A stretch of DNA of 64,000 nt from Termitomyces sp. T153 (Eukaryota; Basidiomycota; Agaricomycetes; Agaricales; Lyophyllaceae): positions 124,001-188,000 of the forward strand of contig JACKQL020000047.1 in assembly GCA_018296165.2 (NCBI GenBank). The letters run 5' to 3'. Below the pieces are notes generated by a model. It saw only the letters and a program-made list of their open reading frames with translations. It had not been told where the DNA came from and did no database searches. The position numbers were made by a program, and so were the translations under genes. Shown here one piece after another: positions 22,385 to 50,674 of the stretch. Position 1 is the first letter of the stretch, and the number at the start of each line of letters is the position of its first letter.

Positions 22385-22392
22385 TATAAAAG
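22385..22392 (+). promoter_or_regulatory. TATA box of GH7 gene 1
   Basis: TATAAAAG, 64 bp upstream of the chosen ATG at 22,456, a normal spacing for a highly expressed secreted-enzyme gene. Confidence 0.65.
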
Positions 22393-22455
22393 GTCGTTAT
22401 TATGATAAAGTATTACCAACCAGTGAACCAACTTACTAGAACTAGGCTTTTCTTG

Positions 22456-24100
22456 ATGTTCCCGAAGCTCGCTCTCATCTCACTCGCCTATCTCGCCGTC
22501 GTGCATGCTCAACAAGTAGGCACCAATACGGCAGAGACGCATCCATCGCTCTCATGGCAGAAGTGCACAACTGGTGGCGGCTGTACCACCTCGTCCGGTT
22601 CTGTCGTAATCGATGCCAACTGGCGTTGGGTGCATAATGTTGGTGGCTACACAAACTGCTACACTGGCAATACATGGGACGCTACGTTGTGTCCCGACGA
22701 CGAGACTTGTGCTGCTAATTGTGCTTTGGACGGTGCCGACTACTCTGGTACCTACGGTGTCACCACCAGTGGCAACGCTCTCACCCTCAAATTCGTCACC
22801 AATGGCGCTCAAAAGAATATCGGCTCTCGTCTCTATCTCATGGCTAGCGACACCCAGTACCAGTTATTCAAGCTACTGAACCAAGAGTTCACCTTCGACG
22901 TTGACGTTTCTCAGCTCCCATGTGGTCTCAATGGCGCGCTCTACTTCTCCGAGATGGACGCCGACGGTGGTATGGCGAAATATCCCACCAACAAGGCTGG
23001 AGCGAAATATGGGACAGGTTACTGCGATTCTCAGTGCCCGCAAGACCTTAAATTCATTGCCGGAGAGGTATGCCTATCTTAGTGTCGTGCTACCATTCCA
23101 AGATTGACTTAGGGTTCAGGCAAATGTTGAGGGCTGGAAACCCTCTTCCAACGATGTCAATGCTGGTACTGGTACTAACGGTGCCTGCTGTAACGAGATG
23201 GACGTTTGGGAGGCAAATTCCGTTTCTGCCGCGTACACTCCTCATCCTTGCACCTCTACCGGCCTAACAAGCTGCTCCGGGTCCTCTTGTGGTGGAACCT
23301 CAAACCCCGATAGTAGATACGATTCCGTGTGCGATCCCGATGGTTGTGATTTCAACTCATACCGTATGGGTAACACGACCTTCTACGGCCAGGGCTCCGG
23401 ATTCGCCGTCGACACTTCCCGGAAATTCACCGTTGTCACCCAATTCATCACTAACTCCGGCTCGGCATCTGGCACGCTGAGCGAGATTCGTCGCCTCTAC
23501 GTCCAGAATGGCAAGGTCATTCAAAACTCTAAGGTCAATATCCCCGGCATGTCGTCCGACCTTAACTCTATCACCGCCGACTTCTGCTCGACACAGAAGA
23601 CTGCATTCGGCGATACCGACAGCTTCGGCTCGAAGGGAGGACTTCCGAATATGAGTAAGGCTATGGCCAATGGCATGGTCCTTGTCTTGAGCGTCTGGGA
23701 CGATCACGCAGCCAATATGCTCTGGCTCGACAGTAGCTACCCCACCGATGCTGATCCAAGCACGCCAGGTGTTAAGCGTGGAACTTGTGCCACGTCCTCT
23801 GGCGTTCCCGCGCAGGTCGAGAGCAACTCCCCGAATGCTCAAGTTATCTACTCGAATATCAGGTTTGGCGACATCGGTTCGACCTACACTAACACTGGCA
23901 ACACCCCCACAACGTCAAATCCTCCTTCTGGCGCTACGCAGGTGAAGTACGGTCAATGGTAAGTTGTTCAAATTGACATTTTGATTATAACGGCTCTAAT
24001 GCATTTAAAAAGTGGCGGTACGGGATGGACCGGACCTACGGTTTGCGTGTCTGGAACAACTTGCACCGTCTTAAACCAGTACTACTCACAGTGTATCTGA
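22456..24100 (+). CDS. GH7 cellobiohydrolase with C-terminal CBM1
   Basis: Model: exons 22456-23067, 23120-23958, 24013-24100 (introns 52 and 54 nt), 512 residues. It hydrolyses cellulose chains, releasing cellobiose outside the cell. Residues 1-18 form a signal peptide (cleavage before QQVGTN). The GH7 domain has the catalytic Glu-x-Asp-x-x-Glu as EMDVWE (E230, D232, E235) and many conserved cysteines. A short Thr/Ser/Pro linker leads to a CBM1 at about 478-512 with four cysteines ([13 protein letters not shown]...YYSQC). The second intron splits the first CBM1 cysteine codon, so reading through it would lose the binding module. The ATG at 22,456 was preferred over an upstream in-frame ATG because it begins the signal peptide and matches the paralog's start. 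The gene points tail-to-tail at the second GH7 gene. Confidence 0.95.
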
Positions 24101-24778
24101 TCTCGAGGATTTCATATAGTGAGTGCAGTGGCAGGCGTTCATTCAACAATTCATAGCAATTTTATTCCACTACATATGTACAAATCTCGTCATGTCTGAA
24201 CTAGCAGCGATCGCCTTCCTGATTCTCTTTCTTTTTCAAAATCATATCTATAATTACTACTTGTCACCATGTGAATGCGGATTGTCTAGGCCTTCAGAAA
24301 TCTCGTTGTTTCGACAGAATAAGCTCCCTTTTGTCTAAAGACTCGGCCAGTTTTTGGTCGAAAGAAATTGGCCATCTAATCAGTACTGAGAAATAATGGC
24401 TGACCTATTAAAGAGGAAAATCTCAACTCTCAATTGAAATCAGACGGATGTAGCAGTAAATGGCCATCACTTATAACTCATCAATTATACGACCTTTCCA
24501 ATTCTACAAAGAAATTGCCTCGAGCATGTTGACAGTAAAAGATGGCAATATTGATCGTCACCTTATAACGGGAGACTCAGTCGTTACGTCTGCAAACGAA
24601 GAAAGTAATTCATGCTGTACAATGAATTGATATTTAGATCGGCATATATATATTTGTGAATCAAGTGCATATAAACAAGACAGAAAAGGTTACTGCTTGT
24701 CAATTCTATGAGGTGTCATTAATATTCATCAAGATGAAGTCGCGAAAATTCAACTCACTACTGAACAATTTTGCGGAC
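24101..24778. other. Convergent intergenic region between the GH7 genes
   Basis: 678 bp, AT-rich, holding both 3' ends. No CBM1-like coding was seen on the minus strand downstream of the second gene's stop, so the lack of CBM1 there is not a simple late frameshift. Confidence 0.5.
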
Positions 24779-26212
24779 TCAATGGGAATAAGTGGAATCA
24801 AGATCTCCGAACTTGATGTTAGAATAGATAACGTAGGCAGAGGCATCCTGATTTTCAACCACGCTGGGAACACCCGAATCGGTGGGGCAACTTCCACGTG
24901 CGATACCTGGCTTGTTTGGGTCTGCATCGACAGGATAGGAGCTGTCGAGCCAGAGCATATTGGCTGCGTGATCGTCCCAGAGACTCATGACCAGAACCAT
25001 GCCATTGCGAGCTGCAGCGCCCATACCTCCCATACCTCCCTTGCGGCTGAAATCGTTTTGGTCTCCAAAGGCAGTCTTCTGCGCATCGCAGAATGCGGAG
25101 GTGACGGAATTGGAAGACGGCATACCAGAGATGTTGGTGTTAGAGTTCTGGATGACAACACCGTCCTGAACGTAGAGGCGGCGGATTTCGCTGAGGGTTC
25201 CGGAAGAAGTGCCATCGTTGGTGATGAATTGAGTGACGACTGTGAATGGGCGAGAGGTGTCAACGGTCAATCCCTTGCCGTAGAAAGTCTTGTTGCCCAT
25301 GCGGTACGAGTTAAAGTCACACCCGTCAGGATCGCAAATGGAGCCGTAGCGGTTGTCTGGGGTATAGGTACCTCCGCAGGACTCCGTCGTGCAAACAACG
25401 AGACCTGTCTGTGTGCAGGGGTGAGGAGTGTACGCGGAGGATACGGAGTTGGCCTCCCAGACGTCCATTTCATTGCAGCATGCACCGTGATTACCAAGAC
25501 CGGTGTTGACATCGTTGGAGGAAGGTGTCCAACCTTCAACGTTGGCCTGCGAGGATGATTGTTAGAAATGATATACTTATAAGAGTCAATAAGAACCCAC
25601 CTGTCCTGCAATGAACTTAAGGTCTCTGGGGCACTGAGAGTCACAGTAACCTGTCCCATATTTCGCTCCAGCCTTGTTGGTGGGGTATTTGGCCATGCCA
25701 CCGTCGGCATCCATCTCAGAGAAGTAGAGAGCACCATTGAGACCACATGGCAGCTGAGAAACGTCAACGTCGAAGGTGAACTCTTGGTTCAGCAACTTGA
25801 ATAACTGGTACTGGGTATCGCTAGCCATGAGATAGAGACGCGAGCCGATATTCTTTTGAGCGCCATTGGTGATGAAGTTCAGTCTGAGCGAGTTGCCGCT
25901 AGTGGTGACGCCATAGGTGCCAGGGTAGTCGGCGCCGTCCAAGGCGCAGTTAGCAGCACAGGTCACGTCATCAGGGCACAACGTAGCGTCCCATGTATTG
26001 CCAGTGTAGCAGTTTGTGTAACCACCAACATTATGTACCCAACGCCAGTTAGCATCGATTACGACGGAACCGGAGGTGGTGGTGCAGCTGCCGCCAGCTG
26101 TGCATTTCTGCCATGAAAGCGTTGGATGAGTCTCAGCAGTGTTGGTGCCAACCTGCTGAGCCCCGACGATGGCGACGAACGAGAGTGCAGTAAGAACGAC
26201 TTTGGGGAACAT
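24779..26212 (-). CDS. GH7 cellobiohydrolase, catalytic domain only
   Basis: Model: complement of exons 26212-25601 and 25546-24779 with one 54-nt intron at exactly the position of intron 1 in the paralog; 459 residues. Signal peptide at 1-18 (cleaved before QQVGTN). Catalytic EMDVWE is intact (E230, D232, E235), as is the ANMLWLDS product-side block. The protein ends at [10 protein letters not shown] with no linker or CBM1, so it should act on more accessible or soluble cellulose, possibly with looser surface attachment. From about residue 125 to 195 it is identical to its neighbour, while exon 2 differs at many places. This suggests gene conversion in exon 1. Confidence 0.95.
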
Positions 26213-26260
26213 TGTACAAAGTTCTCAAGTTGTTGAGACGACACCTGAAGCTGAAAGTCC

Positions 26261-26269
26261 ATTTTATAT
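26261..26269 (-). promoter_or_regulatory. TATA box of GH7 gene 2
   Basis: ATATAAAAT on the minus strand, about 50 bp upstream of the ATG at 26,212. Confidence 0.6.
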
Positions 26270-27543
26270 GTGGTGGGTGGAAAAAGTCCGGTTGAAGTTT
26301 GTGTACAGACGTCTAGCAGTTGCTCCGCAAGCCGAAAACCGAACGAGAGAGAACGGTTCACCATCAAGCTATACTTGGAGATCAAGACATAATGCACTGA
26401 GAGGCGTCAGACGATGTTGGGGCATGTACCGAGAACTATCCGTTTAGCATACTTTGAAAGTTCGGCATTTCTTGATAAACGCTAGATTAGAAACTGCGGC
26501 GCTCCATGAACATTGTAGTATTACAATGATTCAGATAATCCTCACAAAACTTGAGTGTGCCAGTGGCAAAATTTAGCCCTAGCGAGTTGCAGTAGGATAA
26601 GAATTTGTATTCGGTTCTGGAGAACGAGACAAAAACTAATCAGCTGAGAGCACATATGTTTTGATAAAAGAGGAGCTTTTCGATATCACGACATATAAAT
26701 GGCATTTGGCTGTGGAGCGCATATCCTTCACATGCTCTGAGTTCGGACAAACTCATCAGTGCTTTCCGAGATATTCAATAATAGAGCAAAGCTAGCAAGT
26801 AGGCTATCGAGGACTCAGACCATTGAAGCACGTGCCGTCGGAGAAGGTTCTGTTGTTAGGGTTCTTGTTGCAGGTTCCACTGATTTTGGGATAGGCTTGA
26901 GCTCAGAGTTCCAGAGATATTCATCAAGGAGAGTTTGCCTCCCAATACTGATAGCATTTTGTTCAAGCCTATGGTTGATAATGTCGTATATAATGATTTT
27001 TGTGGTACCGGAGACATCCGACGGCATGCCGTCCGATCGAATTCCATATCAAGAGTTCGAATGGAGTTAGGTATCACTGTCCCCATAAGTACATGTAGAT
27101 CGACCTGATCCGGCAGGAGCCCGGTGACTGAGCTGGAATTTCTGCTTTCTTCTTATACTATCTATTCGATAAGTAGTCGTCAGATTCTCCTCAAAAGTAC
27201 AAGAACTCGAAGTTTGAACCTATCAGTTACTCTGACCGCGACTTGACGGCAAGGCACGTAGAATTCCGAGTCGCCACTCGGATGTTCTGCTTTGTTCTCG
27301 TGCTGCCCTTCACGAGGTTGATTGGGATCAAGAAGTTATTATCATTTACACAGCCTCGCTTTGTGTGGTCAAATAAGCGTTCATTACATTGGGGATTCAT
27401 TATTAACTCTTCTCCCACCTTCAATTGCATCTTACGCAAGCTTCAACAGAGTTGAGGGCCCAGCTTGAGGAATACCGTGAGTACATACCGATCAATCATG
27501 TCCACCTCCTTGTAGGTACTGATGTCCGCATGCAGTACCGCGA
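26270..27543. other. Intergenic, upstream of GH7 gene 2
   Basis: CpG-normal. Open frames here (up to about 100 codons) lack coding character. Holds the GH7 gene 2 promoter and presumably the 5' region of the next ORF. Confidence 0.45.
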
Positions 27544-27972
27544 ATGCATTCGTCTGTCTCTTCTGCTCAGCAAAGCTCTCCGTCTACGACGACTGAGACT
27601 CGGAACGACATAGTCATGAACTCAGAAGCCTATTCTGCATTCCTAGCACCTCCAACGAAACTAGACAAAGCGACACCCGCAGAACCGTCTAACATACGCC
27701 AGTATTATTCCCCTACCCATCCAACGACGTCAATTGCCGATCTTGTCCTTGACAACATCACGTATGACAAGATCCTCAGCTCCTCCGCGAAAGACCTCAG
27801 CCTCACTCCTCACTACGAACAATCAACCCCAACCCTTCCCTTTGACAACACCCGGACTCCTCCCAACTCACCAACCGACGTCCTTTCAAATCAGAGTTTG
27901 ATGGCAGCATCTTTCAATATCATGGCACCAGAGACCGAGGCAAGATCAGAGATCGACAAAACAGACTTTTGA
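27544..27972 (+). CDS. Small Ser/Thr/Pro-rich hypothetical protein
   Basis: An uninterrupted 142-codon frame. The product is rich in Ser, Thr and Pro, has no signal peptide or membrane segment, and contains SP/TP motifs (SPTHP, TPPNSPTD) of the kind used as proline-directed phosphorylation sites. A more ordered stretch lies at IADLVLDNITYDKIL (about 63-78). I recognise no family. Composition and codon use look more gene-like than the surrounding frames, but expression is unproven, and an upstream exon is possible. Confidence 0.4.
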   Translation: MHSSVSSAQQSSPSTTTETRNDIVMNSEAYSAFLAPPTKLDKATPAEPSNIRQYYSPTHPTTSIADLVLDNITYDKILSSSAKDLSLTPHYEQSTPTLPFDNTRTPPNSPTDVLSNQSLMAASFNIMAPETEARSEIDKTDF

Positions 27973-28662
27973 TCAGTTCCTTGACTCCTTCTCATTAAAC
28001 ATTCAAATTTAGGACCTAGGTCTCTCCTGGTTCGCCGCCCGAGGGTGTCCAAATTGGAAGGAAAATAATTCCAATTTGTTCTTCTGTGTCTCAAACATGT
28101 AATTTGTAGTGAATGAATATCTCGTAGCATGTATCGCGTTATTGTATGGGCATAAGTGGAGAATGTGGGTGTTCTTTTGTTCCCGAATTAGCGAATTGAC
28201 GATCAAGATCTAATCTTATCTCCGTAATTCGCCTTGAGATATATTGACCCAAATCACAGTCTCATTACAATCCAATTTGACTCAGTCGTCTTTTCTATCA
28301 GTGGGCTTTCTCATTGTTTCCTCAGAAATTGTTGACAACAAGAAATTATAGGTGGATTTCGAGATACAAGGTCAAGAGAAAACCGAACGTATATACAACA
28401 TGGTGAAAGACTCGAGATAATTCGGAAGTTTTATATCTTCCCGCCCGTGCCAGGCCACGAGAAACGCGCTGATACAAAATCGTTGGAGGGAATATGAAAG
28501 AGGCAGAGCTGTCGTTTGTTTATGGGTACTCCCTGGCAGGCTGGGATGACATCGGAACACATGCTCCTAATCTGTTCGGAATCCAAAGCTGCTTTGTCTG
28601 GGACAGCACGTCAACATGTTCGGCCTCTCATGCTCTACGTATGATTCTTCTCAATGGTGAGA
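27973..28662. other. Intergenic
   Basis: AT-rich 3' flanks of the two surrounding ORFs, which point toward each other. No gene is supported. Confidence 0.45.
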
Positions 28663-30167
28663 TTACTTGTATGAAAACGGATTGAATGGGTCATCCTCGC
28701 CAATGGTATGAGAATAGGTACTGCGAGCAGGGGGCGCTGCTTTTTCGCTGGTAGACATCGAGAGCTCTTTCTCGGGCACGCCTTCACCTCCAGGTAATGT
28801 GGCCGCAAGGGCTATGGCCTCGAAACGTTCGAGTGCGGCAGCGGTCGGAACCTGCGGAACAGGCGCGAAGATCCTCCCATTGGGTGTGTCGATGCTCCGT
28901 GGAGTTTCATCCTTAAAAATCACGGGATCGTATGCAAACGGATTGAAGGGGTCTTCCTCGCCGATGATATGGGGAATGATTCTGGGGGCAGCGGAGGGAG
29001 CTATTGGCTGGACAACCGAATAGCTCTGATCAGAACGAGACGATGGGTCGGAAAAGTCTTGAAGAGGCGTTTGGTTGCGCGACGTTGTCGGGGTTACACC
29101 GGGGTAGACGTCGCAATCCATCGAATCGGAAAGCTCTTCCTCCATCATGTCTTCGACTGCAGGTACTGTCGACGCAAGGGCTATGGCCTCGAAGTATTCA
29201 AGGGCGGCAGCAGTTGGAACTTGCGGAACAGGTGCGAAGATCCTCCCGTTGGGTGTGTCGATGCTCCGTGCATTTCTATCCTCAAAAGCGGCGTCACAGG
29301 AAAACGGATCAAAAGAATTATTTCCATTAATGATATGGGGAATGACCCTGGGGGAAGAGTCATATTGAAGGAGAGCAGGAGGGTAGGTGGGGGGCCATGG
29401 AAGCGGAGGGGAGCTCAATTCCTCGCTATAGCAATCGACATAGAGGTTGGATTGAAGGGGAGCAGCAGGGTAAATGGGGGGCCATGGAAGTGGAGGGGAG
29501 TTCAATTCCTCGCTATTGTGATCGACATGACTGCCGGATTGAAGGGGAGCAGGAGGATAGATGGGAGGCCATGGAAGCGGAGGGGAGCTTGATTCCTCGC
29601 TACAACGATCAACATAGAGGTTGGATTGAAGGGTAGCAGGAGGGTAAATGGGAGGCCATGGAAGTGGAGGGGAGTTCAACTCCTCGCTATTGCGATCGAC
29701 ACGAGGGCCAGATTGAAGGGGAGCAGGAGGATAGATGGGAGGGTGTGGAAGCGAAGGAGAATTCGATTCCTCGCTATAGCGATCGGCATAAAAATCGTGT
29801 CGAAGGGGAGCAGGAGGGTAGATGGGAGGCCAAAGAAGCGAAGTCCCAGAAAAAGGACACCTTAACCGGTATCGGCCTTCTTCAGCAGGGTCACGACCGA
29901 AGATGGTGGTATTCGCTCTTATTTCTGCGAGATCGTTAATGAGCTGCTGGTTCAGCATTCTCGAAGGACTGTCCTGGTAAGGCATGGAGTTGCCATGAGG
30001 CATCCCGAGGTCATTTTGGTTATAATTATACTTGATGGATACCAGTAAGTACCAGCGGGATCGTAAATTGATAATGATAATGCACTCACTGAGGCTCCTC
30101 TAGTCACCGCCCCTCTCATCGTTCCCAAAGTTTGACCTTGAGAAAGTCGTCTAATTCCGTTCAGCAT
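28663..30167 (-). CDS. Tandem-repeat protein with two nested repeat systems, unknown function
   Basis: Model: complement of exons 30167-30090 and 30030-28663 with a 59-nt GTGAGT...CAAG intron, phase 0, giving 481 residues. The N-terminus (about 1-93) is unique. Residues about 94-240 hold five 29-residue repeats plus part of a sixth, each starting PPIYPPAPLQ and ending with an acidic SEELNSPPLPW-type block. Units 2 and 4, and units 3 and 5, are most alike, giving a 58-residue higher-order period. Residues about 250-481 hold two full copies and one cut copy of a different ~75-residue block (PHIIGEEDPFNPF, then SIDTPNGRIFAPVPQ). No signal peptide or membrane segment. Tyr/Pro-rich repeats suggest a scaffold or disordered binding protein (inference). 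No family recognised. Confidence 0.7.
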
Positions 30168-30212
30168 TGTATAAGTGGATTTCTTGGTATGGATTTTGGA
30201 GTAGGGTGTCAG

Positions 30213-30560
30213 CTATGTACAAGAAGTGTGCAGCTCAAGATCAGAAGATTTGAGTGAGTAGCTGCAAAATACTGTTGTTGTTTGATAGGGTGGGGGTGTC
30301 TCCAGAAAGACAGTCGGTGTCTTGGGGATGATATGAGCCCTTTCTACTAGTCTTTCTGAATCTGTGCCAAAGCACAACCGTACGGCCTCATGTGGTTGTG
30401 TTGGCTCTTTGTCAAGGCTGGACACCCTCTTGCGCCACCTGATTATAACAATGTGTGCTGAGGCTCTTTTCGGGAGTTTCCTTGATAACGCCATGCATTG
30501 GGTGGCCGGGCCTACGTAATCATCTAGCAGATTAGGACATGGATTCGGGACACTGGCCAC
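30213..30560 (-). CDS. Possible small ORF upstream of the repeat protein
   Basis: A 115-codon minus frame (start MASVPNPCPNLL) without recognisable domains. It may be a chance frame in the repeat-protein promoter. Included with low confidence because it is uninterrupted and in CpG-normal DNA. Confidence 0.2.
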   Translation of the reverse strand: MASVPNPCPNLLDDYVGPATQCMALSRKLPKRASAHIVIIRWRKRVSSLDKEPTQPHEAVRLCFGTDSERLVERAHIIPKTPTVFLETPPPYQTTTVFCSYSLKSSDLELHTSCT

Positions 30561-30892
30561 TGCCTACGTACCCTCGTTCTTCTGGCCAGGACCTTGTCTG
30601 AAAGGCCAGTGAACAGAAATTCTTCGATACGTCGATTTATCAAGGTTCCACTGTCGATTGCGTGATGCTCCACCCTGACTTCAAATAGTCTCTACGAAAA
30701 TGCTGGTCCGCATGAAAGCTGGGTTTACTCCGTCTAACATAATTTGGAAACTTAGTGTTTTTCGAGCTACTACTATAGTACGTTTGTCAAGTCGCATCCG
30801 GTCACCTATGTGTGATTATTCAAAATGTTGAGATAAGATTGGTAGATGTGATTACACTGGCCACAATCCTAAATATCGTCGCTGGCTATATG
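30561..30892. other. Intergenic flank of LTR element
   Basis: CpG-normal, no gene seen. Ends at the ATAGA target duplication. Confidence 0.5.
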
Positions 30893-30897
30893 ATAGA
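30893..30897. repeat. Target-site duplication of 2.6-kb LTR element (left)
   Basis: ATAGA, repeated at 33,495-33,499. Confidence 0.88.
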
Positions 30898-31151
30898 TGT
30901 AACGGTAGACCACCGATTAGGTAGCGTACGGTCACAATAGCTTAGAGTCTCGATGAAGGAACTGGTTTAAGTCCTCTTTTGTTAAGACTGCCCCTCTACA
31001 ACTAATTCTAGCTTCTTTTATATCTAGAGAAAGTCGGGGAAAATCGGGAATGAACTGAATAGGATGACGACAGTAAAGTAAGTTTTCTGGGTAGAGCTTT
31101 CTGGCTATCATCAAGCCCGGAGAATGACGTAGAGGTCACGCGAGCGCTACA
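30898..31151 (-). repeat. LTR (CpG-retaining copy)
   Basis: Carries 13 CpGs, all of which are TpG or CpA in the partner LTR. It faces the gene block. Confidence 0.9.
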
Positions 31152-31247
31152 TACGCCCTCCAAGTCGGATAGCAAGAGGCATACGGCTTTTATGAGTGGT
31201 AAGTTAGAGTGTAAATGAAAGTAAACTCTGAAGTGGAACGACGTTCA

Positions 31248-31862
31248 TTAAGCGGAGGGATCAGCATCCGACTGGGGCTCGGGTGCGTCGGGGTAATCCT
31301 CAAACTCGTCCCCCGCATCGTCTCCAGGGAGTGGAACGTACTCAGGATCCACCACCATCTCTTCTTCTTCTTCTTCTTCTTCTTCTTCTCGGGCTTTCCC
31401 TTTTCCTTTGGTGTCTGAGTCTCGGATCATGATCCCTTTTGAAGTAACAGTGGTGCTGGCAGAATGTTGTCGAGCTTGGAGAGGTGCAGTGGAGGTGAGA
31501 GTCGGTTGACTATCAGGGTGACTGGTAGAAGTAGAGGCGGTGGATTACTTTAGTAATCTAGTAATCATATCCTGTAACTCATTGGATATAGGCTCAGATC
31601 CTGCGCGCTTACTTCGCTTAGATCTTTTCTCTTTCAATTCCTTTTCCATCTGTCGAATTTCCTTTTCAAACTTCCGTTTCATATGTAATTTCTTACGGAG
31701 TTCTTCACGAGTTGAATGATTCGAAGCCTCTTCTTCGGAATCGTTTTCTTCTGATTCCAGGTCCCCAGTTCCGGCTGCCTCGTCAACCTCAGTGATTAAC
31801 CTATCCCGGTCAGCATAACATTCGTCCAAAATGCACCTGATGCTGGCAGGATGATATAACAT
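31248..31862 (-). pseudogene. Gag-like ORF of the 2.6-kb element, 3' part
   Basis: One minus frame from 31,862 to 31,248 with a single TAA after MITRLLK. The first part has an acidic stretch and then a basic coiled-coil-like segment (KKLHMKRKFEKEIRQMEKEL). The end has ten consecutive Glu residues and an acidic tail. The GAA/GAG run gives the TTC repeat on the plus strand at 31,361-31,389. No enzyme motif. Confidence 0.5.
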
Positions 31863-32283
31863 CCCCTGTCATGACAGGATAAGCCTGATATAACCACAGT
31901 TGTAATTACAGCGCTGCTTGTTACATCAATCACGTGTGATAATTGTCAACAGCATCAAATGTTGAACCGGACAAAAAGAAATCAACCAAAGAGAATTGAA
32001 CCAACAACCTTAATACTAATGCACATAATTGGAAGGAAGACACAATACAACCATTGAACTAACAGGCTCAATAATAATCTCAACACATTAAGGCCTATGT
32101 ACCCATGAGGCCTGCCTGTTGAGCACATGGTTAGCCTGGTTAGAGTTCAGTTAGAGTTATGGTTAGGGAGTTAGTGGTTTGGTTAGGTTCTGTTAAGGTT
32201 TTGTCAACATGCTTAGGGTTCCAAGGATATTTTGAAGGGGAGCTTTCTCCTCTTATCACAACAAGTTTGTATTGTAATTAAGG

Positions 32284-32360
32284 CTCTGTGGTCAACTGGT
32301 TATGGTTGTATCAATTGTTGTTTTTGGGATAGTGGTCACAGGTTCAATTCTCCCAATTGG
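32284..32360 (+). repeat. Possible tRNA-derived (SINE-like) fragment
   Basis: TGGTCAACTGGTTA resembles a pol III A box, and GGTTCAATTCT a B box with CpG lost. The acceptor ends do not pair, so this is not a tRNA gene. Weak. Confidence 0.25.
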
Positions 32361-33134
32361 CAAAATATTTGACTGAAAATTGGTGATGCTGTAGTTACAA
32401 TGCTGGTTATATTACGACTATGCTGTAAGTACAGGCTGTTGTTATAATAAATGGACGGTATAGCCTGCAAAATGTGACATTGCACTTCTGGTTCTAAATC
32501 TTCCCTTGATTCTGCATTCCCCCAATTACCAGGGTCAGTTCCTTTGGCTTTCTTGGTCAATGTCCTGTTATCCATCATGGCTCATGCTGTCACCATGCTT
32601 AGATTCTGATTGCATGTGTCTATGAGTTCTTGTTGGGAGGGAGTCATGTTGTTACAAGCCAGGTTTATAGTATCTGCCTGCTCCCTGGTTAGGTCCACTG
32701 TATTTCTCTTATTCTGGTTTGTGTTTTCAATTCTTGCCTGTTGATGAGGCTCATCAAACCTTATATTGGTGTTTTCCTGCAGGTTTTTGTTATCAATATG
32801 GGGAGTAGCAAATATATTAGCTACTGAAGTTTCTTCAGTATCAGTACTGGTGCTAGGATTATCTTCTATTTTGTCTAAAACTTTTTCTGAAGTCAGTTTT
32901 GTCTCTTCATCTGAAAGTGATTCCGTTAGAGGGGATTCTGCCGGGGCAGAATCCCTGACATCCACCAAAGCTGTCGACAAAGAGTCCACTGCCAGAGCAG
33001 TGGATGTAAGATGAGGGGGAGCAGCTTGATACATGCTGCCCACCACTTCTTCTGCCCTTGAGACCTGCCCTGTGTGGCACACAGCAGTGGGTTTTCAAGC
33101 AGAAATTGTATCTAGATTCTGTATTAGTAGACAT
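32336..33134 (-). pseudogene. Gag-like ORF of the 2.6-kb element, 5' part
   Basis: Minus frames 33,134-32,907 and 33,082-32,582 overlap in different phases and are followed by 32,578-32,336. The first begins MSTNTESRYNF just inside the 5' LTR, as a gag start should. The main frame is acidic with Asn/Gln-rich stretches (NLQENTNIRF). Frame breaks show decay. No zinc knuckle seen. Confidence 0.45.
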
Positions 33135-33240
33135 TTTAAAACTATAGGACTCATGACTAGGATGAGCATGGTTGATCAGACTGTGGGGTAGCCCACTGTA
33201 TGGGAGTTGAGATAATTAAGGACTTGTAAAGTTCAAAATA

Positions 33241-33494
33241 TGTAATGGTAGACCACTGATTAGGTAGCATACAGTCACAATAGCTTAGAGTCTCAATGAA
33301 GGAACTGGTTTGAGTCCTCTTTTGTTAAGACTGCCCCTCTACAACTAATTCTAGCTTCTTTTATATCTAGAGAAAGTCAGAGAAAATCAGGAATGAACTA
33401 AATAGGATGATGACAGTAAAGTAAGTTTTCTGGGTAGAGCTTTCTGGCTATCATAAAGCCTGGAAGGTGATGTAGAGGTCATGCAAGCACTACA
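33241..33494 (-). repeat. LTR (CpG-depleted copy)
   Basis: 254 bp, no CpG left. Outside CpG sites only a handful of differences from its partner are seen. Confidence 0.9.
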
Positions 33495-33499
33495 ATAGA
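33495..33499. repeat. Target-site duplication of 2.6-kb LTR element (right)
   Basis: ATAGA, matching 30,893-30,897. Confidence 0.88.
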
Positions 33500-36400
33500 C
33501 ATTGCCTGAATGCCTGAACCCACCAATAGTGCAGCAAAAATTCAGCTTCTCTGGATTATGATTGACATTTTAAATCACTCTCATACTAAGTATGTCAAGG
33601 CAATGAAGAGTTTACCAGCTTGTCCACATTTGTGACCAGTTGTTTGGAGCTGAAACACATACAATACACACCACCAAAAACTCTGGTAATTCAGGCACTG
33701 ATACTCATGCACTGAGTGAATATGTTTGCTGAATTTGCAAATGTCATAATACTGCCAAGTGTGAAAGGTCAATATTTGTTAACATGTCTCTCCAACCACT
33801 CATGAAGGTTTGGATCTGCTACTAACCATCTCAGATGATGTAACATGTCAGAAACATATCTTTGTTTAGGGCTAGCTTAATTCAGTATTATCCTGTCCAT
33901 GCATCATGCATCAAGGTAAAATTGTGTCATAGACAGATAGCATTTGCCAAAAAACAGCAACACCTGTTTTTCAAAACACAAGTAATGCTTCACAGCAAAC
34001 CAAACACTCACTTGTGCAGAGGGCTGGAAACAACTTTTTATGCAGGTGATCGGATAAATGTACATGGCCAAGGATGCCCATATGACATCTTAAATCCTGC
34101 TGTACTGCAGAAGAATCCTGTGCAGTAATAACCTACTGTTATATGGAATTTTCATTGCAAGATTTGATATTGAATTTTGAGCATGTAGCTCCGATGCCCT
34201 GACCCCTTGTGATGCAACTAGCTATCAACCATATTATACAGAAGGGATAGTGTTAGAGCACATATGACTATAATGCAGGTAAGCCTATATAACTCATGAG
34301 ATGATAGTAATCAAGAAAGAAAAGATCACTGAATACTGCAAACAATGATTTGGATAAGGGGGAGTACTGACTGTGAAAGATGGTAGACTGTTGGTAGCTG
34401 GGTGTTTAGGATTCAAAGAATATGGCCTGGGGAGTAGGTAATCAAATCTATGTCTTCATGCAAAACCAGCTTTTGTAAATAAGCTAGATTACTGTGTACA
34501 TTGAGAGGAACTTCTGCAGACTTAGGAGCAACTTTCATGACAATGTTGTTATTGAATGTTGTGAAAATAATGATTGAGAAAGAATACATACTTTTTGCTT
34601 TGGGATATCACAAAAGAGATTTGACCCTGTCTGGTGCCACTGTGCCAGAGTTGATAATATATGCCAAAACCTTTCTACTCTTGCTAGACATGATCAAGTG
34701 ATCATAGACCAGTTTACCATGCATAATAGTCACAAATCAAAGTTGCTAGTAGATAAGAATGTTGACAGGTGGGCCACAACAAGCATGCAAAAGTTGTGAG
34801 CAAATCTGAGTTGGAATGCTTAGACATAAACCATTTAAATTGAGGCCCACTCTCATTGGCTGAGCTGCAGAATCCATAGTTTGAGATATTCAGGCATCTC
34901 ACTAGTATGATGGTTGCAACACTAAAATTTGGAGCTCAATCACAAGATAAATGTCCACCTCACCCTCAAGAAATTGCTTGAGCTTGAGAAGATTGGAATG
35001 CAGCAGCTTGTATGGCCACCAGTCTGCCACTGCACATTGACTACTAATCAATAAAAAACATCATGGCTTTGTAGTCTTTGCTAGTATATCAGTTAGTACA
35101 TGCACCTGTCATTTGCAACATTGGGTGTTGAAGGATTGTTCACGTAAAAGCTGGGTTTGACTCCCAGGCAAAGAGATCTTTTATTTGCAAACCTGGTTTT
35201 GTTTTCTTTCATGATTGAATAGTCTTTTTGTGGAGTTTTTACCCTGTGAAAATGTCAACTTTTTTCTGATCTCATCCTTATGCTTCTTCAATAGCTCCAT
35301 TGCCTTGGATTCCTGGTATTTTCCACTGTACATGTAACAGAATCATTGACTCTAGAATTCCTTGCACTGATTTATATGTCAACCACAATTTCCAATTCCC
35401 TCCATCATCCTTGCCACAAAAGATAATTGCCAAAGATGTGTAGTTTTTTTGATATTGACAAACTGCTCCAAGCTGAATGCAAGGATGCTCTAGATATTCT
35501 AGCTATTTTAAACATGGCTCTTTAAAGAGTTAAATTCTAATCTCATTCTGGATTTCTCTGAGGACATCACTCTGGTCAAGCTTGACCCTCATGCTGGCAT
35601 CACTGACTTTGACACAGCCATCATTGGTCTACATCCTGGCCAGGGTCTGCTTGTTATGTCTCCTAGTTGCTGTTCTCCTTTTTCAGTACACATTTCTTTT
35701 ACTTTCCACTTTTATGCTGCTCAACTTCTGCTTTCTAGCTAATGGCCACTGCACAGTTTGGAACTTCTCACACCAAGGTCTATTGTCTAAACTAGATAGC
35801 TCTGGTGCTGGAAGTCATTGATCTTACTCAGAACAACAGTGCCAAGGCCTAGCTGAATTAAAGAGCCATGTTTCTTTTGTTTCTTTTATGCAAACTATTA
35901 CAATGTGTTCCTGTAGTAGTTTCATGATGTTTTCTATCATGATGCCAATTTCTGAAATTACCTTATGTTATTTCAATGTGCTTGCCATTCTTGTATGACC
36001 TGAGTCAATTTCCAGTGTGATCTTAAGTAGACTAGTCTAAAATAGGTGAATGTCATCATACTTTCTCCCTACTTGGTAACTCTGATCATTGTATTCTGAT
36101 ATGCTTTCTAGAAAAACATGGGCTTACTCCCCCTCCTTTCTTAATATCAGCACTGTCTTGAGTTTCATATGTCATGTAGAGTACTTCCCAATTGATAAAA
36201 TTGATTTTACCTGGGCCAACCAGTTATGCCTTCCTGAGTTTGTCTTGTGCTATGTAATTCCTTAGGCTCCTGCACAATGTGCTTCATAGCCAACCCAGTC
36301 AGCCTTCTGCTGCAAAGCTGGGCCATGCTTTTCTCTTATTCCTTCTTTATGTTTGCTCCTGTTGATCCTCCTGCACTTGCAAACTTCAAGTCTGTCATTA

Positions 36401-36686
36401 GTACTGGCCTCAAGAACTACAGTTAGATTCCCTTGCAGGAATATGGTCATCATCATCATCATTACTGTGTCTAGTTGTAAACTGTAACAGAGCATCCTAC
36501 TGACCACCAGATTACAGTACACAGTATATTGATTTATACTACTTATTTATTATTCATTAGCAGCATCATGTGATGCTGCTTTTTATTAATACTATTTTTT
36601 ATTATATAAGGCATTGTCTTACTTGCATACTCATTATCCCCATCCTGCCATCTTTTGGCCACAAGTGTTTTCAATCTGGGGCTATC
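33500..36686. other. CpG-poor unclassified DNA
   Basis: Over 3 kb without recognisable coding. Short open frames (60-90 codons) have no motif. The only specific feature found is the Asp-tRNA-like sequence at 35,075-35,175. Probably old repeat relics. Confidence 0.4.
35075..35175 (+). pseudogene. tRNA-Asp(GTC)-like pseudogene with insertion
   Basis: TCTTTGC (35,075-35,081) pairs 7/7 with GCAAAGA (35,168-35,174). The D arm is GTAT-ATCAGTTA-GTAC. The anticodon arm TGCAC-CTGTCAT-TTGCA has a 7-nt loop with anticodon GTC. The T arm is CTGGG-TTTGACT-CCCAG. Compared with the T-loop consensus, C is T at a CpG position, as expected from decay. About 30 nt are inserted between the anticodon arm and T arm, so a mature tRNA is unlikely. 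Confidence 0.7.
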
Positions 36687-37015
36687 TGATGGCACTACTG
36701 TGGTAGCATCATGTGATTTGTGGCACAAGATTGAGGCCTTTTATGGTGGATTTCCATTTTGGGTTATGTGACTTCAATTATGATGTTGGGCTCTGCACAT
36801 GCACAGAATTCAACTCATGTTTCCCACAGTACTTCCCACCATTCATCTCTGTAAATTTGTGGCCCTGGAAACAGGAATCCTTAGACTTGTTCTTTTTGGA
36901 TTTCCCTTTGCCAGGTATGCAGTTAGTTTCTGCTGTGCAGCTACTATTGATAGACTTTGAATTTTCCTCTGCCAGGTATGTAACTGAACCATAGCCTCCA
37001 GAGGTCACCCTTACA
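36687..37015 (+). repeat. Old solo LTR of the 40.3-kb Gypsy family
   Basis: Aligns over its length with the LTRs at 40,303-40,609 and 46,079-46,339 (GATCCTTAGACTTGTTCT-type block, GCCTCCAGAGGT, ending CCCTTACA). Much more diverged than those two, and no matching duplication remains, so it is an older insertion. Confidence 0.65.
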
Positions 37016-37107
37016 TCTCAACACTGTTCCTGACCCCAGCATATGTCACTGACCTGCTACTATGGCTTACCTAATTGAGTCTGGAACATCATGCCAACCC
37101 TGGGGTG

Positions 37108-37112
37108 GCCCA
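37108..37112. repeat. TRIM-like element target-site duplication (left)
   Basis: GCCCA, repeated at 38,926-38,930. Confidence 0.88.
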
Positions 37113-37802
37113 TGTCATGACCCATTCCATTCCCCCCTTTCCTTCACCATTATCCAACCTCAGATTCTACACAGTCCCTCTCTAGATCTCAGCCACACCC
37201 CCAGATCTTAGCCACAGTCCTGTTTCAGCCACATCCAGGTTTTAGCCACCTCTAGGACCGCTTTTCCTATTCCAGATCATTCCCACAGGCACAGATCACT
37301 TCCACAGGTTCCAGATCACTTCCACAGGTTCCAGATCACTTCCACAGGTTCCAGATCACTTCCATGGGTTCCAGATCACTTCCACAGGTTCCAGATCACT
37401 TCCACAGATTCCAGATCACTTCCACAGGTTCCAGATCACTTCCACAGGTTCCAGATCACTTCCACAGGTTCCAGATCACTTCCACCTGTCCAAGATCACT
37501 TCCAGGATTGCTTCCCTTGTTCCAGATTGCTTTCCCATGACTTAGATCACTTCCATCTTCTCCTTTTGGCAGTGTTCTACAGCTATATAAGGTCCCTTAG
37601 TCTGTAGCTACACCCCAGCCTTGACATTACCTGATATCTTGTTTGTGTTCTGTTGTTATCTGATCTTCTCTCCATTCATTACTCGCTCTCATTTCTTAGT
37701 TTCTTGGTTTCTTTCCCTATCTACATACTTGCTGTTGGCATCACCTCCCCAAGGTAGTTTTGGCTCCTGTAAGAGTCCTCCTCCAGGACTGTGGTCCTGA
37801 CA
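37113..37802 (+). repeat. TRIM-like left LTR
   Basis: Contains about 12 copies of a 20-bp unit and CTATATAAGG at about 37,583. 41 bp longer than its partner, mainly through two extra units. Confidence 0.88.
37270..37505 (+). repeat. 20-bp minisatellite in left LTR
   Basis: About 12 tandem copies of TTCCAGATCACTTCCACAGG with few substitutions. The edges are more diverged than the centre. Confidence 0.9.
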
Positions 37803-38276
37803 AATGTCAAGGCTGCACCACCCCCCAGGTTGTGATGGCAGCTTGTATGTCTTACCCACTCTATTTCTATCCCTCCTCCACTTTAGCCTTCATTGGGGAG
37901 TTTGAGGATGGCACCAGTAATCCCATAGAGTTGGCTCCCCCATTTCTATTCCCCCCACACCTCTATCTAGGCTCAGAGTTACTGGGGTGGCACTGGTATT
38001 TCATGGGGTTGATTTTGGATGCATTCACATGCTCCAGCACTGTCCACCCTTTGCTTCAGCCTTAGTTGGGAAGTAATAGGATGGCTCCAGTACCTGTGGA
38101 GTTGACTCTTGCACCTTCTTCACAGTGGTTATTGCAAGTACAGATTGGCACTCGCTTTGGACACCCTCCTGGTCTTTCTCCATGCTTCTTCCCTTCCCAA
38201 CACTCTTTTACACTCCTCAGAATCTTAGAATCACAGCACACACATCTTGAGGGCTCAATGCTTGAAGAGGGAGTAC
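37803..38276 (+). other. TRIM-like interior (474 bp)
   Basis: No long frame with domain content. It seems to contain degenerate copies of a ~110-150-bp segment with a GATGGC(A/T)CCAGTA core (about 37,900 and 38,080), suggesting it too arose by internal duplication. Confidence 0.5.
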
Positions 38277-38925
38277 TGTCATGACCCATTCCATTCCCCC
38301 CTTCTCTTCACCATTATCCAACCTCAGATTCTACACAGTCCCTCTCTAGATCTCAGCCACACCCCCAGATCTTAGCCACAGTCCTGTTTCAGCCACATCC
38401 AGGTTTTAGCCACCTCTAGGACCACTTTTCCTATTCTAGATCATTCCCACAGGTTCCAGATCACTTCCACAGGTTCCAGATCACTTCCATGGGTTCCAGA
38501 TCACTTCCACAGGTTCCAGATCACTTCCATGGGTTCCAGATCACTTCCACAGGTTCCAGATCACTTCCACAGGTTCCAGATCACTTCCACAGGTTCCAGA
38601 TCACTTCTACCTGTTCAAGATCACTTCCAGGATTGCTTTCCTTGTTCCAGATTGCTTTCCCATGACTTAGATCACTTCCATCTTCTCCTTTTGGCAGTGT
38701 TCTACAGCTATAAGGTCCCTTAGTCTGTAGCTACACCCCAGCCTTGACATTACCTGATATCTTGTTTGTGTTCTGTTGTTATCTGATCTTCTCTCCATTC
38801 ATTACTCGCTCTCATTTCTTAGTTTCTTGGTTTCTTTCCCTATCTACATACTTGCTGTTGGCATCACCTCCCCAAGGTAGTTTTGGCTCCTGTAAGAGTC
38901 CTCCTCCAGGACTGTGGTCCTGACA
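38277..38925 (+). repeat. TRIM-like right LTR
   Basis: About 10 copies of the 20-bp unit. The TATA-like site is shortened to CTATAAGG, 2 bp less than in the left LTR. Confidence 0.88.
38435..38635 (+). repeat. 20-bp minisatellite in right LTR
   Basis: About 10 copies of the same unit as at 37,270-37,505; variant CCATGGG units sit at different positions in the two arrays. Confidence 0.9.
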
Positions 38926-38930
38926 GCCCA
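38926..38930. repeat. TRIM-like element target-site duplication (right)
   Basis: GCCCA, matching 37,108-37,112. Confidence 0.88.
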
Positions 38931-40159
38931 TGCTCCCATCTGATCCCATTAGTATATTACCATGGCCTGCCAACCAATTGTAACAACACCCATCAACTCT
39001 GCATGGCCCCAACAAACTCTGCCATCAGACCTATGATGTGCTCCCATGCCACCTAGTGCCATGCAGGAAACCTAAAAAGAGGACCTAACATTAGTACTAG
39101 ATAGGGTAGCTAGCAATAGGAAGTTAATAGTGAGGATGAGTTAGTAACTGTCCCAGAGAACAAGAGCAAATGAGGTGCAAAGTGGATGAAAAGTGAAAAT
39201 AGTTGCTATTGTTAGCCTAAGTTGCTAAACAGTAACAAAAGGTCACTAAACAAAAGAAAGGGAAAAGAATAAAGGCAAAAGAGTTGCTAAGGGAGGAGGA
39301 ACTAAGTGGTGAAAGGAGTGTTGGGAAACAAAGGAGAAAGTGATGGTAAAAAAACTAGGAGGATGAATGCAAAACTAGTCACTAGCCATAGTTGCTAGTG
39401 TTGCTAAGTCAAAATAACAATAAGGGCACCTGCAGTTGGTACCACACAAAGTCAAAATCAAGGTTGGCAAGACTGTTGCTAAGTCATTGTTGATGATGAA
39501 TGAAGGAGCAAAATGAAATCTTAAGATGGTAAGCTTAGAGAGAGAGGGGAAAATGGTACTCTGTTCATTGTCTTTAGTCTCTATGTACAGGCAGTATTTA
39601 TACTGTTTGTAAGTATAGTAGAAGAAAGGAGATAGTAGTCACCACCAGCAATGGTGTCTGCTAAAGTGTCTATGATACATACCAGATGTCAGTCTGTTAA
39701 CCAAGTAAAAAGTAAGTGAAGTTGATGTGATGTATAAAAATTACAAATTGCAAGAAAAGAACATGTCTGATGTCAATATCTGAAGTGTAAATGCTGTTCA
39801 AGTATGTTTGTAAGCTTGACAAGAAAAAAATAATAAGAAATCGCATGACTGTCAATATATCCATTTTTAGAGGGAAGGCTGTGTTGTTGCCAGGAAAGTC
39901 ACTAGTGATCATTGCTAAGAAAGGTCTCAGCCTTGTCATTCTAGACCCAGAGTCCAGACTCCACATGATGTGGCTTGTAATTGACAAGTTTTGTGGTCAC
40001 TAAAATCCCATGCAAAGGCTACATTGTTCTAGACCTCAGGGCTAGCCCTCACATGCTGAGTATTGTGACTTGTGCCATGTCAATATAATCAGCTGCTGTC
40101 CAATCATAAATGCTGAAAAATGGTGCTCAGCAACAAATGGGTCTTATTACCTGCTATCC
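38931..40159. other. CpG-poor unclassified DNA
   Basis: Purine-rich, with several GTTGCTA-type short repeats around 39,180-39,480. No coding signal. May belong to the element whose LTR continues at 40,160. Confidence 0.35.
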
Positions 40160-40302
40160 CTAGGAGAGTTCCAGTAGTTGCTATATAAGTTGTAGAGTAG
40201 CATCCCATACCTAGTCTTGATATTACCTATGTTCTGATTGATTGTTTCTATGTGCTTTGTATTTCTATGTTATGTTTCCTCTTATCTCAGTCTCCCAGTC
40301 TT
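40160..40302 (+). repeat. Left half of an older LTR split by Gypsy insertion
   Basis: GCTATATAAG (about 40,178) followed by a CCTAGTCTTGATATTACCT-type stretch resembles the promoter and leader part of the TRIM LTRs (GCTATATAAGG...CCAGCCTTGACATTACCT). It should join 46,345 across the Gypsy element. Confidence 0.5.
40298..40302. repeat. Gypsy target-site duplication (left)
   Basis: GTCTT, repeated at 46,340-46,344. Confidence 0.88.
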
Positions 40303-40609
40303 TGTCAAGGAACCACTATAACTAGACCCATGATCATGTGACATGCCAACCTGTTGCTTAGTCATGTGATCTGCCAACCTGTCACTTAGTCATGTGATCT
40401 GCCAACCTGTCAATGCATGTGACTTGGTCATGTGACTTCAAGTAAATTTTCTGAACACTGGCATTGGGGATCCTTAGACTTGTTCTCTTTGGATCTCCCT
40501 TGATCAGGTGTGTAGTTAGTTTGTAGACACTGCACTATGCTGAATAAACTTTGAATCTCCCTTTGCCAGTTGTGTGATTGAGCCACAGCCTCTAGAGGTT
40601 GCCCTTACA
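40303..40609 (+). repeat. Gypsy 5' LTR
   Basis: 307 bp, with extra tandem copies of a ~29-bp unit (CATGTGATCTGCCAACCTGT) not present in the 3' LTR, explaining most of the length difference. Confidence 0.9.
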
Positions 40610-40727
40610 GCAGAACAAGTCTCTAGATTTGGTCTGGAAGCTCTCTTTTTTGATTGCCTGAGTTTCTACTTGGTTCCTCAAAAGGTTTCTCCCCCATCAG
40701 TGTCTTAGTGTCCCCTGTGCACCTCCT

Positions 40728-41975
40728 ATGACACAACCAACCCCTCCAGCACCTCCCCCTGATGCTTCAAGCCCCCAAGATGATGCCTGGAGGTGTTTTT
40801 TGTCTCTGTAGATACAGGTTCAACTCACTCAAGCCTCCCTTACCTCCCACACCACTAAACTCACTGGGCTCCATCAAACCACTGAAGCAGCATCTCTTTT
40901 CCTCCAGGCCCTCCTAGAACATCTTCCCCTTACTCCTACTCCTCTTCCTGGACTCCCAGCAGCTGCAGCAAGGTTCTTTTCTGCACTTAGCTTGGAGGCT
41001 TCAGTACTCTACTCTAAACTTCCTTGTCCTGCACTCCCTGACATATTTGATGGAGACCATAGAGTTGGGGTACATTTCCTCTAGTCTTGCATCACCTATA
41101 TCCAGTTGAGCAGTGAAGCCTTCATCTCTAATGCCTTGAGAATTGCCTGGATTCTCTCCTATATAAAGGCTGGCCAAGCCTCAACCTACACACTGCACAT
41201 TTTTTGACACCCAGAAGGAGTTGAGAGTTTTTCTGGCTGGATGGAGTTTGAGAAGGAGTTCTGAGCTGAATTCTTTCCCCTTGACCCTGCCAAGACTGCA
41301 GCTCTTTCTCTTCAAGACCAAACCCAGTATGGTCAAGAAAAGCAGTCACTTGATGAGTACATTGACTCTTTCTGTACCTTAGTTGAACAGGCTGGCCATC
41401 CTGATGGTCTGCAACTCTGTCTCACCTTTTATAATGGACTCTACCCCTCTCTCATGGATTGTATTGATAGTATGGCTGAGGGGCACCCAGATGATGAACA
41501 TGTCAATACCTGGTACAAGGTAGCATATGAGCAGTGGCAGTTGATGGAACTGCAACACAAGCTGCAGTGGACACAACTCTCAACATTTCTCTTCTCTTAT
41601 AGTGGGTTCACCCCCTGAGTTCTCCCTTCCATGCTGGCTCTAGCCACCCCATGAGCAGGTGCAACTCTTCTCCTTCTATCTCACATTGCCCTCTTGCACT
41701 CTCTACTCCAAGGAGTCCCAATGGACAGATAGCAATCCTCTACTCCCCTGTTATACCAATACTGTAGAAAGGCAGGTCACTTTGCCTGCTACTGTCCTTA
41801 AGGGCTAGAAATCTGCTACATGTCTGCATCAGAGCAGAAAAAGCTGCTCATCCAACTCCTAGCAGCAAAGGATGCAACAGGAGCTCCCTCTCCTGATGCA
41901 CCTATAGCCATCCACTCTAATGAGGCAGCCAATGTATTGGAGGAGGTTCCTGCAGAATTGGAGAATTTTTAAAAG
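40728..41975 (+). pseudogene. Gypsy gag with zinc knuckle relic
   Basis: One consistent frame from the ATG at 40,728. It has a Pro-rich start (TQPTPPAPPPDA), a capsid-like region (PDIFDGDHRVGVHF, EYIDSFCTLVEQAG, LYPSLMDCI) and a CCHC-knuckle relic (about 41,757-41,800, first Cys replaced by Tyr). In-frame stops are TAG where Gln is expected and TGA where Arg is expected, consistent with CAG-to-TAG and CGA-to-TGA changes. Confidence 0.8.
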
Positions 41976-41983
41976 GGCAATGG

Positions 41984-43276: not shown

Positions 43277-43288
43277 GTCTTAAATGCA

Positions 43289-43780
43289 ATGACAGTAAAG
43301 AATTGCTATCCTCTACCACTCATCTCAGAACTCATCAACAACCTTCAAGGTGCATGCTACTTCACCAAGTTGGATGTCTGTTGGGGCTACAACAATGTGC
43401 ACACCAAAGAGGGAGATGAGTTGAAGGCAGCATTTCAAACCAATTTTGGACTCTTTGAACCTCTGGTGATGTTCATTGGCCTCACAAACAGCACAGTCAC
43501 TTTCCAGACTATGATGAATGACATTTTCCATGACCTGATTGTGGAAGGTGTTGTTTGCATGTATCTTGATGATATCTTCATCTACACTAGAATCTTGGAG
43601 AAGCATTGCCAGGTCATGTGCATTATCTTGGAATGCCTCCACCAACACCAGCTTTATTTAAAGCCTGAGAAATGTAAATTCAAGCAGACTAAGGTGGAGT
43701 ACCTAAGATTGATCATCTCACATGAAATGGCTGAGATGGACTCCATGGATCCCATTAAAGTAGCCAGTGTAGTAGAGTAG
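43289..43780 (+). pseudogene. Gypsy reverse transcriptase core
   Basis: Same domain as the preceding frame after one stop. Contains YPLPLISELIN, FTKLDVCWGYNN and the catalytic YLDDIFIYT (43,562-43,588). The frame stops after VASVVE, where a Trp codon is expected, consistent with a G-to-A change. Confidence 0.85.
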
Positions 43781-44009
43781 CCTGAGCCAAGGAACAAGAA
43801 GGAAGCACAAGCCTTTCTTAGGTTTGTCAACTTCTACCAGAGGTTCATACAGAATTTCTCCCACTACACACATCCCCTCTTTGACCTCACAGGCAGGAAT
43901 GCAGCATAGCAGTGGGAGCCCCCATAGCAAGCTGCCTTCAATGCCCTCAAGCAAGCTGTTACCTCAAAACCTGTCCTCCTGTTTTCAGATGATGACTCTC
44001 TCTTCTGGG

Positions 44010-44660: not shown

Positions 44661-44678
44661 CCTTCTGAGGACACATTT

Positions 44679-50672: not shown

Positions 50673-50674
50673 TG

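Follow-up and report, generated by a model that had tools for sequence, protein, structure and literature searches.

The window, the whole stretch of 64,000 nucleotides that was analysed, contains by its composition a CpG-rich island from ~19.4 to 32 kb and another one from ~50.3 kb; the CpG density from 33,001 to 50,000 is 0-3 per kb. Within the first island are two genes of glycosyl hydrolase family 7 [22,402-23,962 and 24,779-26,212 (PF00840)]. These two genes (22402-26212) lie in opposite orientation and are 77% identical at the DNA level. A search with one gene of the window gave, as best hit, a Termitomyces protein of 93% identity. The island is flanked by element 2 (14,800-19,566) on the left and by element 1 on the right. 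The features are listed below; a strand is given where one was assigned.

14795-14799: target-site duplication TGCTG, outer side of element 2
14800-15152: outer (CpG-poor side) LTR of element 2, 0 CpG
15153-19208, minus strand: internal part of element 2, CpG-poor, with a retroviral-polymerase SH3-like fragment (PF25597, 4.4e-11)
19209-19566: gene-side LTR of element 2, 8 CpGs kept (19,377-19,541)
19567-19571: target-site duplication TGCTG, gene side of element 2
19567-30892: CpG-rich gene island by composition, CpG o/e 0.72-1.06 per full kb
30893-30897: target-site duplication ATAGA, gene side of element 1
30898-31151: gene-side LTR of element 1, 13 CpGs (the 3' LTR if oriented by the C70 coding strand)
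31152-31544: internal end of element 1 adjoining the gene-side LTR, CpG-rich
31545-31558: junction of a ~7.35 kb internal deletion relative to the C70 copy
31559-31826: internal part of element 1, CpG intact (13/14 C70 CpGs kept over 31,559-31,833)
31827-31833: 7-bp target duplication CAAAATG, left of the nested insert
31834-32467: nested repeat insert without a long frame
32468-32474: 7-bp target duplication CAAAATG, right of the nested insert
32475-33240: far-side internal part of element 1, CpG-depleted, with CpGs left at 32,924, 32,942 and 32,975
33241-33494: far-side LTR of element 1, 0 CpG
33495-33499: target-site duplication ATAGA, far side of element 1
33500-49835: CpG-poor domain beyond element 1, by composition
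49836-50676: repetitive AT-rich sequence at the third CpG step, with 84 own-genome matches including itself, some in both orientations

Both flanking elements have the structure of LTR retrotransposons, element 1 with paired LTRs, TG...CA ends and a 5-bp target duplication, and element 2 with paired LTRs, a 5-bp duplication and a pol fragment. Element 2 is presumably copia-like, judging from its domain type. Two frames of C70, a full-length relative of element 1, encode Retrotrans_gag and zf-CCHC domains and a Tf2-1-like SH3 domain. Element 1 is presumably gypsy-like, judging from the Tf2-1 match. Relative to C70 it has an internal deletion of ~7.35 kb, seen in the match of query 1-393 to C70:93076-93462 and of query 408-682 to C70:85452-85726.

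Relatives of the AT-rich repeat at 49.8-50.7 kb lie at C198:33,178-33,395 and at C222:12,271-12,487; CpG drops at both places, in C222 at the end of the sequence examined. The CpG-poor domain also contains a direct repeat of ~690 bp (37113-38925; 93% identical), of which the aligned copies hold 2 and 1 CpGs. At the other end of the window (5000-13000), an endonuclease domain (PF03372) lies in DNA of intermediate CpG content (o/e 0.06-0.24); judging from this domain the segment would be LINE-like, and it is perhaps younger than the surrounding CpG-free DNA.

CpG loss in one LTR of element 1

The LTRs of one element are taken as identical at insertion. Those of element 1 (30,898-31,151 and 33,241-33,494, 254 bp each) could be aligned without gaps, and ATAGA is found at both outer borders of the pair. 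The left, gene-side LTR has 13 CpGs and the right one none. All 13 sites are TpG or CpA in the right LTR, as against differences at 7/228 non-CpG sites (Fisher p = 7e-17). An earlier note on this DNA had described precisely this, a 13/13 CpG difference with TpG or CpA throughout on the right, ATAGA duplications bordering both LTRs and only a handful of other differences, and the alignment confirms it on all three points.

CpG was most likely the ancestral state at the 13 sites, because six of the 14 other LTR copies that we compared (C4b, C70a, C70b, C44b, C22a and C23a) carry CpG at 10-11 of them; the remaining eight copies have CpG at 0-3 of the 13 sites. The polarity of the seven non-CpG differences, judged by eye from the table of LTR copies, fits a change in the right LTR for five and in the left LTR for two. 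In the far LTR, all CpGs are gone while ~2% of the other sites have changed, and the ratio of CpG to non-CpG rates is at least ~50-70 (95% lower bounds).

Position of the CpG step

The earlier note had placed the end of CpG at about 31,975. CpGs persist beyond this point, at 32,415, 32,456, 32,924, 32,942 and 32,975. Moreover, 31,834-32,467 is a later repetitive insertion nested in element 1 and flanked by its own 7-bp duplication, CAAAATG. This insert keeps CpG at 31,912, 31,933 and 31,968 on the left and at 32,415 and 32,456 at its right end, and it has TpG or CpA at 32,160, 32,316, 32,345, 32,361 and 32,401, where some relatives have CpG. Because the insert is poor in CpG, the apparent stop at 31,975 is partly its by-product.

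The internal deletion distorts the left profile of element 1 beyond 500 bp; a direct alignment with C70 was therefore used instead. From 31,559 to 31,833, 13/14 CpGs are kept and the other one is not TpG or CpA. From 32,468 to 33,494, the alignment shows 3/58 kept, 50 changed to TpG or CpA and 5 otherwise different. If the insert and the second duplication are disregarded, the distance from the last CpG that the element keeps (31,823) to the first that it has lost (32,478) is 14 bp. Closer to the genes (30,898-31,544), 27/40 CpGs are kept and 10 are TpG or CpA; nine of these 10 lie at 31,416-31,507, where the direction of change is ambiguous.

These results leave one part of the earlier reading standing: the loss is internally controlled, CpG-specific and spares the gene-side LTR, and it recurs in other elements (see below). 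The idea that the decay began within the element is not supported, since element 1 is the edge of a CpG-poor stretch of ~18 kb (32-50 kb) that includes the flank at 33,495-34,800, since the step coincides with the nested insertion and since the five CpGs named above survive. The flank at 33,495-34,800 is emptied of CpG, and a search of its own genome gave no second match (such searches skip very common words). In a search for a second allele of the element 1 flanks, made in the same way, the only hit was a weak match of 68% over 266 bases, with none for the right flank.

Recurrence of the asymmetry in other LTR pairs

Element 2, at the left edge of the island, is a mirror image of element 1. 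All eight CpGs of its gene-side LTR are TpG or CpA in the outer LTR (8/8), the LTRs differ at 15/336 other sites and TGCTG duplications are present on both sides.

We compared 21 LTR pairs from two families (nine including element 1 and 12 including element 2); hits without a partner were left out. A pair was called a step pair if its outer flanks (700 bp) differed by a CpG o/e of at least 0.5, both flanks being known for 18/21 pairs. There were six step pairs (element 1, element 2, C23, C4, C44 and C50). Their one-sided CpGs, that is, those with TpG or CpA in the partner, numbered 57 in the LTR next to the rich flank and 0 in the LTR next to the poor flank (element 1, 13; element 2, 8; C23, 12; C4, 11; C44, 10; C50, 3). 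Excluding element 1 as the original finding, the ratio was 44:0 over five step pairs. One CpG of C4 is kept in both LTRs. Across the 18 pairs with both flanks known, the excess of survivors in one LTR tracked the difference between the flanks (Spearman 0.84, p = 1.4e-5). Matching target duplications were found for element 1, element 2 and C44; the LTR-pair borders of C23 and C4 showed no clear matching duplication.

The 15 pairs without a known step had 28 one-sided CpGs, 20 in the left LTR and 8 in the right. Both LTRs are nearly intact in CpG in C70 and C305; C15, C61, C207, C97, C95 and C1 are partly decayed and C14, C31, C45 and C13 empty of CpG; C30, C94 and C219 have 1-2 one-sided CpGs, in one LTR. 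Three of these pairs do not follow the simple rule. C95 is 4:0 despite CpG-rich flanks on both sides, and in C45 and C13 both LTRs are emptied even though 1.3 kb of outer flank on one side still contain CpG (o/e 0.70 and 0.47, respectively). In C45, a nested repeat adjoins the LTR.

The width of the edge was measured from the outer end of the gene-side LTR. Relative to C70, C4 keeps 46/46 CpGs in the first 700 bp, 20/33 over the next 700 bp and 2/20 beyond 1.4 kb. CpG gives out at ~500-750 bp in C23 and is kept to ~0.8-1.0 kb in C44, where the homology to C70 ends. Element 2 keeps CpG up to ~190-490 bp, the larger figure applying if the two CpGs at 19,075 and 19,090 are included. For element 1, 929 bp separate the outer LTR end from the site at which the nested repeat inserted.

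The nested repeat family

The nested repeat is ~634 bp long, has no long frame and is flanked by 7-bp target duplications. With 31,841-32,480 as query, at least 42 matches were found in the genome (40 scored of 122 first-look candidates). We read 28 loci, the best 20 by match (own locus included) and eight picked by hand blind to CpG state. Of these, 24 were counted: L034 and L036 were taken out for having fallen on a neighbouring copy (so that the insertion C222:2856 is not covered), L033 as the homolog of L032, and L030, the homolog of L031, was left out of the step count. A step (700-bp flanks, difference of at least 0.5) was present at 9/24 loci, compared with 425/6,197 positions of the window (6.9%; binomial p = 1.7e-5), this null being one small window that contains a nested-repeat locus itself. 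Excluding the own locus, 8/23 loci were at a step (p = 9e-5).

In the eight informative step copies (difference of at least 0.4), the sites that kept CpG lie towards the rich side (23 versus 13; lost sites, 8 versus 39; sign-flip 2/256). Site 32,069, at which nearly all copies are without CpG, was left out of this polarity test. Kept sites are nearer to the rich flank in 7/8 copies at the threshold of 0.4 and in 6/7 at 0.5, and L025 is the sole informative copy of opposite polarity. In L026, the 7-bp duplication has CpG on the rich side and TpG on the poor side.

Searches for a tRNA origin of the insert gave no match: ARAGORN detected no tRNA in the window, and Rfam gave no tRNA up to E = 5 in four nested copies. 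By eye, the repeat has some resemblance to a B-box, and 32137-32220 is a stretch of telomere-like GGTTAG words. The contigs of L032 and L033 (C243 and C138) are 99.7% identical over 3.66 kb in opposite orientation; the assembly may therefore contain some duplicate haplotypes.

A possible shift of the edge in two homologous contigs

The collinear contigs C222 and C198 share 95% identity along 8.7 kb and 98% along the 2.7 kb that follow, and represent alleles or a duplication. Each carries two inverted copies of the nested repeat (C222:2856-3501 and 4295-4941). Neither contig has a CpG in C222:1,356-2,555. In C222:2,556-4,295 there are 53 CpGs in C222 and 0 in C198, where 49 are TpG or CpA and four are otherwise changed; the non-CpG difference in the same intervals, inserts apart, is 3.6-4.6%. 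To the right of the second insert both contigs are rich, with 67 shared CpGs, seven lost in C198, two lost in C222 and two other differences. In the simplest history, the domain edge in one copy would have shifted from ~2,556 to the next insert and then stopped. The inserts of the two contigs have one difference in 1,293 sites, whereas their flanks differ by 2-7%. This near-identity may be an effect of conversion or of the assembly, and it weakens any dating of the insertions.

Discussion

CpG loss to TpG or CpA follows domains in this genome, not whole elements. At both edges of the gene island the loss ends inside an insertion, of which the gene-facing ~0.2-1.2 kb are intact and the far end is almost emptied. 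We consider it probable, judging from the sequence, that mobile-element insertions flanking genes in the window preserve a record of where a heterochromatin-like domain with decaying CpG has its edges. The far part of an insertion would be CpG-methylated by DNMT5/DNMT1-type enzymes, and deamination of methyl-cytosine to thymine would then remove its CpGs. Chromatin of the neighbouring gene would keep methylation off the nearest part, and with further insertions the DNA that each of them separates from the gene would be taken into the domain. Gene-side chromatin is the likely reason for the spared ends, because in the truffle measured methylation tends to be lower in repeats close to expressed genes, as the report on its methylome describes (PMC4165359). 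The nested insert is a possible additional stop for the decay. Some observations run against the proposed explanation: five CpGs are left on the far side (32,415-32,975), of which two belong to the far end of the nested insert, the polarity of L025 is reversed, and C45, C13 and C95 are off the rule.

Enzymes that could place such a mark are predicted from three PF00145 methyltransferase loci in the genome, which are domain fragments and not gene models. One fragment matches PDB 7r76 at 1.7e-81 (file title 'DNA repair protein Rad8'), which we take to be the DNMT5 of Cryptococcus. Another matches DNMT1 chains (best 2.2e-8), and the third (C4:1,004,558) was classed to the PF00145 level. CpG methyltransferases thus appear to be encoded in the genome, as sequence fragments. 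DNMT5 and DNMT1-RFD are described as the CpG enzymes of Basidiomycota in a review (PMC13297926).

Two other explanations are compatible with the proposed one and concern the insertions themselves. The repeats may land at pre-existing domain edges, in open chromatin beside silent DNA, and both the LTR elements and the short repeat do show steps in a good share of the loci examined. We regard such an insertion preference as a possibility worth keeping, though short of probable. Elements 1 and 2 have their steps within the insertions, so that the present edge is younger than the insertion. C222 and C198 likewise suggest insertion first and decay later, subject to the caveat on insert age. Alternatively, the short nested repeat family could act as a barrier to a spreading mark, so that the insert, and not the gene alone, sets the step. 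With the insert disregarded, the step of element 1 is within 14 bp of the insertion point, and at C4, where no repeat copy is seen at the edge, CpG falls over ~700 bp. The excess of steps at insert loci (9/24 versus 6.9% of window positions) also speaks for a barrier, as does the decay in C198 that ended at an insert also present in its homolog C222. Against it, 15/24 nested-repeat loci are away from any step, a C222 insert has CpG-rich DNA on both sides, the null was drawn from one window and an insertion preference for gene edges might account for the excess. Moreover, the homologous inserts are nearly identical (1/1,293 sites), so that their age is unsure, and no known barrier motif was found in the repeat, Rfam giving no tRNA in four copies. 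On this evidence a barrier is rather unlikely. We think it unlikely, too, that the ~634 bp repeat is a portable chromatin barrier inside which, wherever it inserts between a gene and silent DNA, mark and decay stop, with successive insertions ratcheting the silent edge toward genes.

A further alternative is repeat-induced point mutation (RIP), a homology-triggered meiotic process with a CpG preference; the loss can be total, as in the 53/53 sites of C198, and CpG-type C-to-T mutation of repeats is reported for basidiomycetes in part of PMC4352252. Yet both LTRs of a pair are equally repeated and one keeps its CpGs in each of the six step pairs, and the flank without a second match (33,495-34,800) is emptied as well. 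The basidiomycetes studied in PMC4352252 had, in the part of that report concerned, no RID/Masc1 gene. With transitions on both strands, the signature is 13/13 versus 7/228 in element 1 and, in C198, 53/53 with 49 transitions versus 3.6-4.6% at non-CpG sites. Methylation followed by deamination fits better than RIP, because the excess at CpG on both strands follows position and not repetitiveness. RIP was rejected as the main cause, the mutations not being confined to and common to the repeated copies, and we judge it improbable. A chimeric assembly, an allelic crossover or gene conversion could have joined CpG-rich and CpG-poor copies, and homologous contigs with different CpG states do occur in the assembly. 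The target duplications of elements 1 and 2, C44 and the nested insert match, though, and the pattern recurs at six elements. Conversion of the spared element 1 LTR was rejected, as no donor is seen: the closest other LTR is only 82% identical. An artificial or recombinant junction of this kind is very improbable.

The ingredients of the proposed explanation are known. Heterochromatin boundaries at tRNA or TFIIIC sites are known from yeasts. A report on maize describes RdDM at gene-TE boundaries (PMC8224964). The edges described here resemble both in being defined edges between silent repeats and genes; unlike the yeast tRNA boundaries, the nested insert is without a tRNA match (ARAGORN, Rfam on four copies). 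The methylome of the black truffle Tuber melanosporum, as far as presented in the relevant part of PMC4165359, shows a tendency of TEs within 1 kb of expressed genes to be hypomethylated and a CpG preference, which agrees with the spared gene-near TE ends and the CpG preference in our data. That report concerns an ascomycete and measured methylation, whereas ours is a mutational record inside single elements of an agaric, controlled by the paired LTRs. For basidiomycetes, CpG-type mutation of TEs has been attributed, in part of PMC4352252, to methylation and deamination by a Masc2-like DNMT1, and the CpG-only C-to-T signature in some TE copies is common to both studies. There, TE copies are scored against a consensus or reference, and an edge within an element with a spared LTR is not described in the section in question. 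The fragment matching PDB 7r76 gives this genome a predicted counterpart of the maintenance methylation by DNMT5 of Cryptococcus, as covered in part by PMC13297926. As far as the literature was searched, what is new is the record of domain edges in paired LTRs, together with the presence of the insert family at some of these edges. The searches gave no title or abstract opening that describes paired-LTR CpG asymmetry at domain edges, which does not prove that none has been published.

Since LTR pairs start identical, each step pair would be a controlled, sequence-only record of where the silencing mark has lain since insertion. A genome with many of them would allow one to measure, without chromatin data, where heterochromatin edges lie, how wide they are and how they move over evolutionary time, and to test whether particular insertions act as stops.
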